This document shows, in pieces, positions 278-22,657 of a DNA stretch of 22,911 nt; the first letter of the stretch is position 1; each line of letters starts with the position of its first letter. Both the position numbers and the translations under genes were made by a program. Under the pieces are notes generated by a model that did no database searches, had not been told where the DNA came from, and saw only the letters and a program-made list of their open reading frames with translations. Origin of the DNA: a virus; the IMG/VR virus record IMGVR_UViG_3300023202_000310, positions 1 through 22,911 of that record. The stretch is one strand, 5' to 3'.

Positions 278-1291
278 TCAAAGTGATACATTTTTGCGAG
301 TATCCAACTTTTTTCGAACACCATCTATGGCCTCTAGCTTGATCGCCCAGTACCCGTCGAACGGCGAACTTAGGTCAAGAAGCGTCATGAAGATCGATGT
401 ATAGAATGTTGGTAATAAAAACACATAAACATAATCGATATTGATTCTCCCTGTTGCTTTACCGAAGAATGACAAAACCATGGTTGTCGACATCAAGAAC
501 ATGATTACTAATATAAAAGGTGACATTCGTTTTTCGATACAAACAGCTCGTTTGCTTCTAAGAGTCGAAACTCGAGTGAGTGCTCTCATTATTTCTTCCA
601 GTGCGATTTCGTCATTCTTGTCGCCAATCTCTAACTTCGATACTACTGAAATTCCCTCCTCAAGTATTACTTCATTCCTAGCAGCAGTTACCACCCTTCC
701 GTCTTTCAGAATATTTTCTACGTACTCTGATAGAAGTGAGCGTAGCTTATGAATTGGTGCGTCGTTAGCTTCAGGGGCGCCGCCCGACATGAAATACTCT
801 GCAAAATCTGCAATTGACCTGATTACACCTGCTTCTTCGTACAGAATATGCTTCAACTCATCAAAATCAGACAAACCTTTCCAAAGAAGGAACGCGGCGC
901 AAATCGCGTATAGAACAGTTACAGAATCCTTGAATATCGGGTTTACCTGAAAAAGAGCTTGGCCGATCCCATCACGAGAGCCGCCAAAGTCTTCAATACC
1001 ATGTTGTTTAAGGTAGCTCGCTAGGCCATTGACATCCCCACTGTCCAACATTTGCGGGAAATAGTGAAACAGTGCCACACAAAAAAGGCCAACTGAAATC
1101 GGAAAAAGTATCCGCACGTTCACTGTATACGAGAGATTGCTCGTCCGAGGCAGAAAAGTCAGAACAAGCGGAAAACCAATCGCAAGCACAACATACCAAG
1201 TAGCAACGCCCGCAATTTCTGCGATCCATGCGGTTCCTAAGACTATGGCGAGATGTATTCCATATATTGATTTTACCCTTGTAATCTTCAT
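278..1291 (-). CDS. Six-TM membrane protein, DUF4239 (bestrophin-like) candidate
   Basis: A 337-aa protein if started at the ATG at 1291; an in-frame ATG at 1303 adds four residues. GAGA/GTGAG just upstream of 1291 is only a weak Shine-Dalgarno. Hydrophobic segments lie near residues 11-27, 31-47, 60-78, 122-138, 257-276 and 286-305. A charged, Glu-rich helical region (about 145-250) sits between the fourth and fifth. This layout, plus the ending LLDLSSPFDGYWAI after the last segment, resembles the DUF4239 'bestrophin-like' family, which typically ends in D-x-PFxG. I see no enzyme motif. The gene is visibly AT-richer than the prophage and lies alone among transposase fragments, which suggests transfer. 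It could equally be an unrelated membrane protein of an accessory module. Confidence 0.6.
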   Translation of the reverse strand: MKITRVKSIYGIHLAIVLGTAWIAEIAGVATWYVVLAIGFPLVLTFLPRTSNLSYTVNVRILFPISVGLFCVALFHYFPQMLDSGDVNGLASYLKQHGIEDFGGSRDGIGQALFQVNPIFKDSVTVLYAICAAFLLWKGLSDFDELKHILYEEAGVIRSIADFAEYFMSGGAPEANDAPIHKLRSLLSEYVENILKDGRVVTAARNEVILEEGISVVSKLEIGDKNDEIALEEIMRALTRVSTLRSKRAVCIEKRMSPFILVIMFLMSTTMVLSFFGKATGRINIDYVYVFLLPTFYTSIFMTLLDLSSPFDGYWAIKLEAIDGVRKKLDTRKNVSL

Positions 1292-1303
1292 CTCACGTCT
1301 CAT

Positions 1304-1735: not shown

Positions 1736-1938
1736 GGTGGGGCCGCTTTCCTGCATTCACCGGCCTTGAGCGCCAGGGCGAAGGCGGTTGCCCTTCGGCT
1801 TTTTCCAGATCAATCAGAAATTTATGGCCTCCGATAGATCCGCAATCCGGATCGTATATTCGACTTGGCGCGCGGGCGGCCGCGAAAGAATGTCAGGTCC
1901 GACCAATGGCCATTATCGGCATCGGCCACCAGGCCGAT
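1736..1938 (-). repeat. Direct repeat copy 1 (3' end of head gene gp30)
   Basis: Nearly identical to 4076-4278 at a constant offset of 2340 bp, with 8 mismatches counted over about 200 bp and no indel. On the minus strand it encodes the last ~38 residues of the F-type head protein, through the same stop codon (1822-1824), plus about 85 bp of downstream sequence. Within the coding part the frame is preserved with one Gly-to-Asp change. Both copies lose similarity just left of the GGTGGGG block. Confidence 0.9.
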
Positions 1939-1944
1939 CTCGAC

Positions 1945-2071
1945 ACCTGGCCGACCCACTACAGACCCACTACAGACCCACTACAACATCGAACGCCCGC
2001 ATCTGGGCTATCGAAACATGGGGCGACGACCCATCGAAACCGTCATGTCATTCGTAAGTCAAGAAGGTTAA
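1945..2071 (+). pseudogene. C-terminal fragment of an rve-type (IS3/IS481) transposase
   Basis: The plus-strand frame ends in HYNIERPHLGYRNMGRRPIE, then TVMSFVSQEG and a TAA at 2069-2071. The YNxERPHxGYR...GRxP pattern is the typical end of retroviral-type integrase domains in IS3/IS481 transposases. Only ~40 residues remain and the DDE core is absent. AGTGGACA follows the stop, in keeping with the TGTCCACT-like ends of such elements. The fragment interrupts a copy of the phage head gene. Confidence 0.65.
1953..1985 (+). repeat. Three tandem 11-bp units GACCCACTACA
   Basis: GACCCACTACA occurs three times head to tail (1953-1963, 1964-1974, 1975-1985) inside the transposase fragment. An 11-bp unit shifts the reading frame with each copy, so expansion here would itself disrupt the frame. 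Confidence 0.85.
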
Positions 2072-2201
2072 GTGGACATATTGATATAGCGCCGCTGCAA
2101 CAAAACCCAGCCCCGACCAGACTGAACGCGCGACCTCTTTATCCGTTTCAGTTGATTTGTATCAAAACACAACCAAGTCATTATCCCGATCCCGTTGAAA
2201 A

Positions 2202-3254
2202 TTACGGACGTTGTGAGAGCAGAAAAATTGCCACCGTAATTATCAAGCCCATTACGCCGATGACCAACCCAACAAAATAATCATAGATCTTGAGGCGCCT
2301 GGAGCAGCCGTCAATTAGTGACTGAAATATACCAATTGTCGGATTGTACTCGTTCTCAGGAGAATAGTTTTGGCTTTTGTCATAGATTTCCCAAAGAACT
2401 CTGGACAACGTATTGGCATGGTAAAAATAGCAAATTGCTTTTTTCAACAGGCGTATTTTACGAAAGATATGCTCCATCACGTTATAATAGTAATGCACAG
2501 ATAACAAAAAAATCAAAATAATTGGAATTGAAACAACTAAAAATTTTGTAATTAAAGTTCCGCTCAGGCCAATAGCAGCAGTGATATATAAAGAAAAACC
2601 ACCGAGCGCTGGAACGCCAAATATCAGTAGCTTTCCAATTTCACTTTGTCGAATTAGATCAGTTCTCCAAAATCCTGCATGTTCATCGATTGATTTTACC
2701 ATTGAGCACGTACGATCAAAAATTTTGTTGTACAATTTTTTCGTGACGAGAAGGCCTTTTTCATCGGTGACAGATCCAGTCGACCTTTTCAAGGCACGCA
2801 CTTCTGACAAATATCGAGAATCCAGGCAAACCTCAGCGAGGCTGCTCTTTTCTGTCCATGTATCATCCTGGATACAATGACGTTCTTTGTAATGATTAAC
2901 AAATTGGTCGGAAAATGGGTCTTCGACTAGAACCGGACTTAAGCGAAATTCGTCTCGATTAGTTGCTCTGCCGGAACGATGGAGTAGGTGACAGTGTTTT
3001 GTCCGCTCCTTAATTTCAAACGAAATTTGGCGAGCTACGTGCAATATAGAAGTGGGAGGTTGAGCATCTTTTGTTTTGATCTGGAATACAATAATTCCAT
3101 CGTTCAGAGCGCAATATCGAAAGCGGGCGGAAAAATCATCAGAGACTTCAAATTTGTCCCATTCTTGATCGCGTAATATCTTTTTCTGAATTGGAATGGA
3201 CGGAACAGGCCGCCAGTCAACAAAGGTGAACTGATTCCCGATTATGTCTGTCAT
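2202..3254 (-). CDS. 350-aa protein with soluble N-terminus and three TM segments
   Basis: Started at the ATG at 3254; a GTG two codons upstream (3260) is possible, and neither has a clear Shine-Dalgarno. Residues 1-205 are predicted soluble, mixed charged, with several His and Cys residues (for example HCHLLHRSGR at 88-97). Hydrophobic segments follow at about 209-232, 236-257 and 326-347. The loop between the second and third segments is long and basic to aromatic (EHIFRKIRLLKKAICYFYHA). I recognise no family. It lies 27 bp downstream of the 165-aa gene on the same strand, so the two are probably co-transcribed. Both are AT-rich, unlike the phage genes around them. A soluble domain tethered by membrane helices occurs in some phage-defence effectors, but I see no motif that establishes this. 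Confidence 0.75.
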   Translation of the reverse strand: MTDIIGNQFTFVDWRPVPSIPIQKKILRDQEWDKFEVSDDFSARFRYCALNDGIIVFQIKTKDAQPPTSILHVARQISFEIKERTKHCHLLHRSGRATNRDEFRLSPVLVEDPFSDQFVNHYKERHCIQDDTWTEKSSLAEVCLDSRYLSEVRALKRSTGSVTDEKGLLVTKKLYNKIFDRTCSMVKSIDEHAGFWRTDLIRQSEIGKLLIFGVPALGGFSLYITAAIGLSGTLITKFLVVSIPIILIFLLSVHYYYNVMEHIFRKIRLLKKAICYFYHANTLSRVLWEIYDKSQNYSPENEYNPTIGIFQSLIDGCSRRLKIYDYFVGLVIGVMGLIITVAIFLLSQRP

Positions 3255-3281
3255 CGCCACGATCTACCGTTTAAAAGTCAG

Positions 3282-3779
3282 TTACGATTTATCGGTGGTA
3301 TTTAAAATCTTATATGTCTGCGAATCAACAATTATCTGTTTAGGAATGTAATTCTGAATTGTAAGTTCGTTTTCGTAATTTGCGTACCCCATCTTCCGTC
3401 TTTTTTGTTTATCTATTTCATGGACTACCACTCTTAAAATACGATGTCCATTTTCGCGAATTACGACAAGCTCTTCAGACAAAATTCCTTCATCTATACC
3501 AAAAATAATTGTTTCATATTCTTGTTCTGTGAGGCTGGTCTCGTCTAGTATAAATGCTTTTCCTTGCTTCAGTTTTTCGAAAAGGTTTGAAGGGATTTGA
3601 TTCAGGCATTCTTTAGTCAAAGCAAGTTTTGAAAGATCAGCTCCTGCTCCGTTTGGCTTGGCAGCTTTGCATGTTTTAGATGGCGGCATATGGGTTAGCT
3701 CAAAGATATTTTTTGCAGAGAATGTGCGAATCGTTTGCTGACATAAACAGCTGAACGCATTGATTCTATCAGACAACAT
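3282..3779 (-). CDS. 165-aa soluble protein of unknown function
   Basis: First gene of the two-gene AT-rich cassette. The longest form starts at the ATG at 3779; an internal ATG at 3689 (MPPSKTC) is an alternative that would give 135 aa. Neither start has a good ribosome binding site. No hydrophobic segment is visible. The C-terminal half (EELVVIRENGHRILRVVVHE, then basic IDKQKRRK) looks like a small alpha/beta fold with a charged helix. I do not recognise the family. The stop is 27 bp before the start of the three-TM protein, which suggests joint expression and perhaps a joint function (cytosolic partner plus membrane partner); this is inference. Confidence 0.65.
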   Translation of the reverse strand: MLSDRINAFSCLCQQTIRTFSAKNIFELTHMPPSKTCKAAKPNGAGADLSKLALTKECLNQIPSNLFEKLKQGKAFILDETSLTEQEYETIIFGIDEGILSEELVVIRENGHRILRVVVHEIDKQKRRKMGYANYENELTIQNYIPKQIIVDSQTYKILNTTDKS

Positions 3780-3911
3780 ATTTTGCGAGGTGTAAATACT
3801 GAGTTACCAGCTTACTCTACGTTCTCTGCTAAGAGGCCATCCGGGAATTAAGGGTTGAGGGAAAGGGGCGGTTGTGATTCACCGGCTTTTGCAGAAACTC
3901 GGAGGATCAAA
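3780..3911. other. Spacer upstream of the two-gene cassette
   Basis: About 130 bp between the cassette and the IS5-like fragment. It should contain the cassette promoter (minus strand), but no strong -35/-10 pair stands out. The right part (about 3850-3911), running up to a GGAGG ribosome binding site, is probably the left end of the truncated IS5-like element. Confidence 0.35.
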
Positions 3912-4013
3912 ATGGCCTGGACCCCTTTCACTCGCGCCGATCATGACAGAAGTCGGCTCCGCTACACAAGTGACATGACGGATGCGGAATTTGAGCGGAT
4001 TGCCCCGCTTCTG
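3912..4013 (+). pseudogene. N-terminal fragment of an IS5-family transposase
   Basis: From an ATG at 3912 with GGAGG seven bases upstream, the frame encodes 34 residues beginning MAWTPFTRADHDRSRLRYTS and continuing DMTDAEFERIAPLL. This is the characteristic start of IS5-family (IS427-like) transposases. The next codons (IFGLMNTRLI and a stop) no longer fit the family, so the gene was cut at about 4013. The break is immediately next to the repeat holding the end of the phage head gene. That fits a model in which insertion-sequence activity removed the phage late region. Confidence 0.7.
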
Positions 4014-4075: not shown

Positions 4076-4278
4076 GGTGGGGCCGCTTTCCCGCATTTAC
4101 CGGTCTTGAGCGCCAGGGCGAAAGCGGTTGCCCGTCGGCTTTTTCCAGATCAATCAGAAATTTATGGCCTCCGATAGATCCGCAATCCGGATCGTATATT
4201 CGACTTGGCGCGCGGGCGGCCGCGAAAGAATGTCAGGCCCGACCAATGGCCATTATCAGCATCGGCGACCAGGCCGAT
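4076..4278 (-). repeat. Direct repeat copy 2 (intact gp30 3' end)
   Basis: Partner of 1736-1938 in the same orientation. It contains the 3' end of the intact head gene and ~85 bp beyond its stop. The pair brackets the two-gene cassette and the IS5 fragment, so recombination between the copies would delete about 2.3 kb. Confidence 0.9.
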
Positions 4279-5394
4279 GGTCCGGCCCTTGCTGATTTTA
4301 ATCAGCTTGATATAGCGCCGCCGCAACACGACGCGTCTCGACTTTGTCGATTGCGCCCAGCCAACCCAGATTTCGGCCGGGTCGGAGACCAGTTCCGGAA
4401 TAAGCGGGAAATAGCGCTCGCGGCCATCCTGGCGGGTTTCATTATCAAGCAGGTGATCGACGATGGCCTGGTTAAGGCTGACCCGGTCGCCAAGCGGGTC
4501 GGCGACAATCAAATCATCGCCGCCCAACGCGTCGCGCAATGCCTGGCGAAAGCCTTTCTCATTTCCGGGCCGCACGCCTTTCCCCGGACCGCGTTTTGGC
4601 GTATCGAGCGGCAACGGATCAAGCGTGATCTGAAGCTCGCCCGGCGCGCTCAGCGCTTCCCAGGGGCCATGGGCTTCCTGCGCCCGCGTCGCCGTGGCGC
4701 GGCCAAAAGCGGCTTCACCGACATTATAGGCAAAACCGGGGGCGATGCCTTTCGGCGCCTGGACAATGACCGGTCCGGATGGCGTTTGAATCGTGTGATC
4801 GACCAGCGGACTTGGCGGCGCGCGTTTGGAAATCTTCAGCCCATAACGTTTCAGATCGCGTTCATTCAGCGATTGCACCTGGCACCGGCATCCCCAACCG
4901 TTGGGTGAAAAATGGCTGCGCCACCAATTATGATCCACCGGCAAAACCACGTCATGCCATTTGGCGTGCTCGGGCCGGCTGTATTTTTGCTTCAATTCCG
5001 GGTCGGCATGGACATATCGCAAATACGGCCGCTGCGCCTTGACCCGCTGGATTTGCGCCCATTTGCCCGCCGCATAGGCATTTCGCAAATTGGTATTGAA
5101 AATCACCCGGGACCGCCAGCCGCGCGATCCCTTGTAGCTCCAGCCATGTGTCTCAATGATTTTATCAAAGTCCTGGCGGAATTGTTCAAGCGTTGTGCCG
5201 TCTTCGATGGCGCGGTTTACCGCATCGTGAAAATCGCTGAGCAATTGCTTGTTCTGCGCCCCGGCAATGACAAAGGCGCGGGCATGCATGCCTTGCCAGA
5301 TATCGCTCCAGGTCTCTGTCGGCAGGTCGATCTTGTCGCGCAGGAACGCAATCGCTTCGGTTGGATTTGCCGCAAACGGCCTAACATCTGGCAT
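4162..5394 (-). CDS. Mu F-type head morphogenesis protein with C-terminal PBECR-like nuclease domain
   Basis: 410 aa from the ATG at 5394, with GGGGA eight bases upstream (GGGGATTAAAGATG); a TTG at 5412 is less likely. Residues about 30-175 match the phage Mu F/SPP1 gp7 head-morphogenesis domain. They include the conserved H-x-x-W...LPVDHNWWRSHFSPNGWGCR block (about 143-171), which is typical of minor head proteins that sit at the portal. Residues about 285-408 look like a PBECR2 domain (phage barnase/EndoU/colicin/RelE-like nuclease), with R-x-R-Y-F-P-L-I-P near 326-333, DPAEIWVGW at 338-346 and the ending LTFFRG...RSGLRIYRR. In many Mu-like phages such nucleases are fused to this protein. 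It follows the portal gene after an unusual 122-bp gap and is the last phage gene present. Confidence 0.85.
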   Translation of the reverse strand: MPDVRPFAANPTEAIAFLRDKIDLPTETWSDIWQGMHARAFVIAGAQNKQLLSDFHDAVNRAIEDGTTLEQFRQDFDKIIETHGWSYKGSRGWRSRVIFNTNLRNAYAAGKWAQIQRVKAQRPYLRYVHADPELKQKYSRPEHAKWHDVVLPVDHNWWRSHFSPNGWGCRCQVQSLNERDLKRYGLKISKRAPPSPLVDHTIQTPSGPVIVQAPKGIAPGFAYNVGEAAFGRATATRAQEAHGPWEALSAPGELQITLDPLPLDTPKRGPGKGVRPGNEKGFRQALRDALGGDDLIVADPLGDRVSLNQAIVDHLLDNETRQDGRERYFPLIPELVSDPAEIWVGWAQSTKSRRVVLRRRYIKLIKISKGRTIGLVADADNGHWSGLTFFRGRPRAKSNIRSGLRIYRRP

Positions 5395-5516
5395 CTTTAA
5401 TCCCCGAAACAAGCGGGTAAAAAGACCGCCGAAGGTGGAAAGCGCGACTGCGCGCCGACCGGTCAGGTCGCCCCCGCGGAGGCTTCAGCTTTGCTGAATT
5501 GCAGCGAGCGAAATAA
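5395..5516. other. 122-bp gap between portal and head gene
   Basis: Almost all other genes in this operon overlap or nearly touch, so this gap is unusual. One minus-strand frame is open across it, but it lacks a start and looks like a shadow. GC-rich short inverted sequences are present; no function is evident. Confidence 0.4.
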
Positions 5517-21334: not shown

Positions 21335-22657
21335 CTAAATGCTGTATCGGGATTGGCTTGAAGCGGCGCGATTGGCCCTTGGCGACCTCTCGTCGACCGG
21401 GTCCGCAAGGGGCGGGCCGGAGGTGATTTGTGTCAGGGCATGATTCGCGGCTTGCAAAAAGCGCATCATCCGGGCGCTGGATTTGATTATGCGCTTGATA
21501 TCGATCCGCGCGCATGCCAGCCGCACCGCCAGCCAGCCGGCCATGGTGCGCGATTGAACATTGTAGGTCATGTCCATGGGTTGCGCGGACCATTCCAATT
21601 TATAGGGTTCGTCCCCGGCGGAGAAATCGAAACAGGTCAACCCGGCGCGGGTTGCAAGTTCCATCAGCTTGGTCAGCAAAACCGTTCCCGGCGAGCAATT
21701 GGCAAACAATTGATGGTTATAGGCCGGAACAAACAGATTCATCGTGTGGCCCGCTACCAGGACCACATTGGCCGCAACCAGAATATCACCGACTTCCAGA
21801 ACATAGACCCGCAGAAAACGCCCGTCTTTTTCATTCCCGACGATGGCCGCCAGATGCCGTTCGATCCGTCCGTCGGCAAAATTGTTGCGCGCGCCCGTCG
21901 CTCTGAGCTGGCTGGTTTTCCAGGCAATTGACGTTCGGATTATCTCCCGTTTCTGTTCCGGATTCCGGATCTGGCGAATCCGCAGGCGACCCGCCTTCTT
22001 CATTCGTTTGGCCTTGTCCCGCAACCGGCGGCGCGACTTGGCACCGCGCAATCCCGCGTAAAAAGCACCCCAATCGCCATCCAGCATGAGGCGATAAGCG
22101 TTACAGGAGAACGGTCGGGCATCAATTTCAGCGAATGGGTTGGCAACACCGTCAATATAGCCGGGCAATTTGGTCAGAACTGCATAATCGATGTTTGAAA
22201 TAAGAGACATCATACCTTGCCAGATCGTCCGCGCCCGTTCGGCATCAAGCGCCGCAAGCCATTCCCGCCCGGCGACCGGCGCATTATAATCGTTGAGAGA
22301 ACTGCCAAGCCAGGCCAGCCGCCGTTGGCCCATGATCCGGTCAGTCGCCAGTGGCACGATCATTCGCAAACACTCGCCCTCGTAAACCAACACGATAACT
22401 GGATCGGCCGCCACCTGACTGAGCCAGGCAAACGACTGAAACGGAGTCAGCACCGCGTCGGCCTCAAAGGTCTGCCAGACATCCCGGATTTCCCGCAGGT
22501 CGTAAGAGACGAAAACCGAAAACCCATCCACCATGCCCACAGATCCCGAAACCATCGGGGCGGATCTGTCGGGAGAGACGGTTTGAGATCTGTTTGCGGT
22601 CATAGACCGAACACCCGTTTCTGCAGTTGCGGAATTCGCCAAACCGGGAGTGAACAT
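21335..22657 (-). CDS. GNAT acyltransferase, CelD/BcsL family (host gene)
   Basis: 440 aa from the ATG at 22657. The Acetyltransf_6 (BioF2-like) fold is recognisable: DVWQTFEADAVLTPFQSFAW at about 60-79 (typical entry), LAWLGSSLNDYNAPV at about 114-128, GAKSRRRLRDKAKRMKKAGR in the middle, and the conserved end segment FDFSAGDEPYKLEWSA. Such proteins transfer acyl groups in exopolysaccharide/cellulose or amino-sugar modification; the substrate here is unknown. The C-terminal ~30 residues (PPLADPVDERSPRANRAASS) look unstructured and run to 40 bp from the IS481 fragment, so the end may have been altered by that insertion. It lies outside the prophage. Confidence 0.85.
   Translation of the reverse strand: MFTPGLANSATAETGVRSMTANRSQTVSPDRSAPMVSGSVGMVDGFSVFVSYDLREIRDVWQTFEADAVLTPFQSFAWLSQVAADPVIVLVYEGECLRMIVPLATDRIMGQRRLAWLGSSLNDYNAPVAGREWLAALDAERARTIWQGMMSLISNIDYAVLTKLPGYIDGVANPFAEIDARPFSCNAYRLMLDGDWGAFYAGLRGAKSRRRLRDKAKRMKKAGRLRIRQIRNPEQKREIIRTSIAWKTSQLRATGARNNFADGRIERHLAAIVGNEKDGRFLRVYVLEVGDILVAANVVLVAGHTMNLFVPAYNHQLFANCSPGTVLLTKLMELATRAGLTCFDFSAGDEPYKLEWSAQPMDMTYNVQSRTMAGWLAVRLACARIDIKRIIKSSARMMRFLQAANHALTQITSGPPLADPVDERSPRANRAASSQSRYSI

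Follow-up and report, generated by a model that had tools for sequence, protein, structure and literature searches.

The two orphan genes on the minus strand of this stretch, one encoding a small and the other a larger protein, are probably genuine genes of outside origin, and the locus that holds them is a rearranged prophage edge, AT-rich and scarred by insertion sequences (IS), without an orderly slot for cargo genes. The window, i.e., the whole stretch of 22,911 bp that was analysed, is an IMG/VR virus record of a truncated Mu-like prophage, in which the genes for a Mu-like transposase, a MuB-like ATPase, an endolysin, the terminase, the portal and a minor head protein have been kept. We tentatively favour, at somewhat less than an even chance, the explanation that the pair consists of co-transcribed genes that were acquired horizontally, are very restricted in their distribution and now lie at one edge of a Mu-like prophage whose late genes were lost by way of IS-associated rearrangements. 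The features of the locus are summarized in Table 1.

Table 1. Features of the prophage edge and its flanks (positions refer to the window)
Feature	Position	Strand	Remarks
Bestrophin-like membrane protein	278-1303	-	PF14023, Pfam E 3e-17
Direct repeat, left copy	1736-1938		96% identical to right copy
Probable second IS remnant	1939-2080	+	transposase 3' end (presumed), reading ...YNIERPHLGYRNMGRRPIETVMSFV
Large orphan ORF	2202-3260	-	352 aa (GTG 3260) or 350 aa (ATG 3254)
Small orphan ORF	3282-3779	-	165 aa (ATG 3779) or 135 aa (ATG 3689)
IS5/IS1182-family IS remnant (5' part)	3829-4013	+	blastn
Direct repeat, right copy	4076-4278		last codons of minor head gene and 86 bp downstream
Minor head protein	4162-5412	-	PHROG 220; last phage gene before the break
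GNAT gene (Acetyltransf_6)	21335-22657	-	distant relatives in Sinorhizobium and Allorhizobium

Features of the gene pair

The gap between the two open reading frames (ORFs) measures 27 bp if the large one starts at its ATG and 21 bp if it starts at its GTG; an earlier note on this DNA had described two adjacent minus-strand genes 27 bp apart, which is borne out by the ORF coordinates. Neither frame is interrupted anywhere along its length. Among 3000 first-order Markov shuffles of positions 2101-3800, an ORF of at least 165 aa occurred in 23 (0.8%), whereas neither an ORF of at least 350 aa nor the two together occurred in any (0/3000 each). Codon-position bias was above that of shuffled sequences in the 350-aa ORF (p about 0.003) as well as in the 165-aa ORF (p about 0.01). 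In the latter the bias sits wholly after Met31 (p = 0.001); the first 30 codons yielded p = 0.90 in what is a weak test, comprising 90 bases only. Because the coding signal starts near Met31, the true start may be the internal ATG, and the 135-aa product may be a fair alternative form of the small protein. A clear promoter for the pair was not found, promoter-like sites being no commoner than in shuffled sequences, and no convincing ribosome-binding site was recognized by eye upstream of either start. Both results, together with the failure to find a homologue (see below), count against the acquired-pair explanation. A search of the window against Rfam yielded no match.

The GC content is 36.5% in the 165-aa ORF and 40.4% in the 350-aa ORF, compared with 54.6-59.9% in five phage genes (minor head, portal, terminase, transposase and MuB-like). 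The pair is thus far less GC-rich than the phage, as had been claimed, but it shares this trait with the bestrophin-like gene (42.9%), the next gene outward from the pair beyond the left repeat, for which no plasmid relative was found by tblastn and no relative in the pattern scan of IMG/VR. Since this neighbour is AT-rich too, the pair may simply belong to a low-GC host flank. On such an account, which we consider somewhat unlikely, the two would be ordinary fast-evolving or decaying genes in low-GC accessory host DNA, now exposed at the edge of the record, with neither a common function nor any connection to the phage. The AT-rich neighbour, the IS scars and broken phage copy that surround the pair and the lack of relatives among plasmids and phages all agree with this account; full-length open frames with codon-position bias, tightly spaced on one strand, speak against it.

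The small protein has no hydrophobic or transmembrane segment and looks cytosolic. In the large protein a hydrophilic N-terminal part of about 200 aa is followed by a hydrophobic hairpin of two helices (residues 206-259), a charged loop and a C-terminal hydrophobic helix (residues 321-350), so that it looks membrane-anchored on a topology drawn from hydropathy and charge. This matches the previously proposed layout of a cytosolic protein beside a membrane-tethered one. Single-sequence AlphaFold models were unusable for both the small (mean pLDDT 32.2) and the large protein (mean pLDDT 42.5), the latter with modest confidence for the hydrophobic helices.

Prophage setting and junction

The minor head protein is 54% identical to that of the relative L002, in which large open reading frames continue downstream of the minor head gene. 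A Mu-like prophage of Pannonibacter has the virion morphogenesis, protease and major head genes next after the minor head gene; none of them follows it in the window. Leftward from the minor head gene are found 86 bp of the repeat, the IS5 remnant, which stands between the pair and the last phage gene, and then the pair. The pair had been placed in the position of the lost late phage genes. This placement stands insofar as the minor head gene of the related prophage has late genes after it, but the pair is no simple replacement of phage genes. The IS5 remnant flanks it on one side and a duplicated piece of the minor head gene, with a second IS-like remnant, on the other. The minor head protein itself is a fusion of a Mu gpF domain with a nuclease-like domain, PBECR2.

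The IS5 remnant matched annotated IS5-family transposases on plasmids of Rhizobium, Sphingomonas and Rhizorhabdus at 69-75% (blastn). The second IS-like remnant, which by its motif is probably a transposase 3' end, yielded no match in Pfam; 89 bp of it (1990-2078) match a Paracoccus plasmid at 80.9% identity, in a stretch that carries no annotation. It interrupts the minor head repeat on the left side, as it lies between the left copy and positions 2081-2102, where the phage homology resumes (equal to 4307-4328). The two copies of the repeat, each of 203 bp, lie on opposite sides of the pair, and the left copy has kept its resemblance to the minor head gene end of L002. A repeat of this kind may mean that two prophage copies recombined, that a duplication occurred or that the assembly was joined here.

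Taken together, the IS remnants, the repeat and the AT-rich neighbour indicate that the pair is part of a scarred junction rather than an isolated cassette inside the phage. The GNAT gene is probably host flank at the other side of the prophage. Its relatives, together with those of the IS5 remnant (Rhizobium, Sphingomonas) and the Paracoccus stretch, suggest an alphaproteobacterial host.

Homology searches

The absence of a match to any known family, asserted earlier from the letters alone, was upheld for both orphan proteins in Pfam, in NCBIfam and in PADLOC-DB 2.0.0 (no family at E <= 10), and neither protein significantly matched the phage structural families of PHROG. Searches with tblastn gave no match on plasmids for either protein and none on phages for the large one. 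The best match of the small protein on phages (tblastn, E <= 10) was to a Vibrio phage (E = 0.07) and was rejected as chance because it spans the boundary of an RNA polymerase gene and a hypothetical gene. The best match in a PDB sequence search, to a leucine-rich-repeat protein with E = 0.0002 when repeats are summed, is a repeat artefact, single stretches having an i-E of 7 or worse. Scans of genome contigs and IMG/VR viral contigs returned pattern matches but no relatives of either protein; as these scans demand an exact match of eight residues, they exclude close relatives alone and miss distant ones.

The best family match of the small protein was PHROG 5470 (RNA 2'-phosphotransferase, KptA/Tpt1), with E = 0.013 for the whole protein and E = 0.0025 for residues 91-165, a borderline result given that it was picked as the best among 38,880 families. 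A divergent protein of the ADP-ribosyltransferase (ART) fold related to this enzyme is a highly improbable identity for the small protein. The alignment does pair the C-terminus of the small protein with that of the family, and a model built from eight KptA sequences gave the small protein 11.6 bits (E about 0.008), compared with at most 6.9 bits in 1000 shuffles of its own sequence. However, no BLAST alignment was obtained with KptA of E. coli, Pfam reported no match, and a structural model with a pLDDT of 32 is of no use for judging the fold. The small protein lacks the N-terminal LRHxP and the RAxQGHS motifs, which the eight aligned KptA proteins share with small variations, and also the LYHGT motif of the ART lobe; membership in KptA was rejected. 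The C-terminal segment of KptA (GxR ... GxxFY..ENGVWL..VP) aligned weakly with the small protein (E about 0.01), which may have a distant ART-like tail.

Proposed origin and mode of action

According to the acquired-pair explanation, IS-associated rearrangements would have deprived the Mu-like prophage of its late genes, and IS-mediated recombination would have either brought the pair in or left it next to the phage; the two would accordingly be accessory genes and not phage genes. As a membrane-anchored effector or sensor, the large protein would expose its N-terminal residues (about 200) and the charged loop to the cytosol, where the small protein might regulate or neutralise it. Judged from the layout of the two genes, a membrane effector or sensor controlled by the small protein is the most likely way of working, and it is in itself unlikely.

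A module for anti-phage defence or of the toxin-antitoxin type would also fit this layout, in which a cytosolic protein and a multi-helix membrane protein adjoin a prophage and IS remnants; the former would sense infection or hold back its partner, and the latter would damage the membrane once released. Prophage-carried defence proteins are established (PMC8585504), but with no match in PADLOC-DB 2.0.0, no known effector domain in Pfam and no homologues, we regard such a module as doubtful. An undescribed two-gene module for defence or toxin restraint, with a small protein of a new family controlling a membrane effector whose cytosolic sensing domain is also new, appears improbable.

The pair is probably ordinary, though real, at a broken prophage edge. 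Orphan accessory genes are common at the edges of prophages, and the pair alone is therefore no surprise. If homologues showed both genes travelling together, a new functional module would be indicated. What is useful here is a corrected anatomy, i.e., an IS-scarred break beside a duplicated piece of a phage gene, and not an intact cargo position of the phage.

Comparison with known systems

Compared with KptA/Tpt1, the small protein is too short and lacks three motifs of the catalytic region, whereas its last 55 residues or so, the only part covered by the alignment, resemble the family weakly, including one aligned arginine. The Mu-like prophage on plasmid p.BB_1 of Pannonibacter phragmitetus (L008) has the order terminase, portal and minor head protein in common with the window, but differs in the late region, where the window has the IS5 remnant and the orphan pair. 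BstA is a phage-defence gene carried by a prophage (PMC8585504). No sequence relation of the pair to prophage defence genes of this type is evident, and the prophage in the window is broken, with the pair outside the remaining block of phage genes; like those genes, the pair lies in or beside a prophage and is not needed for virion assembly.
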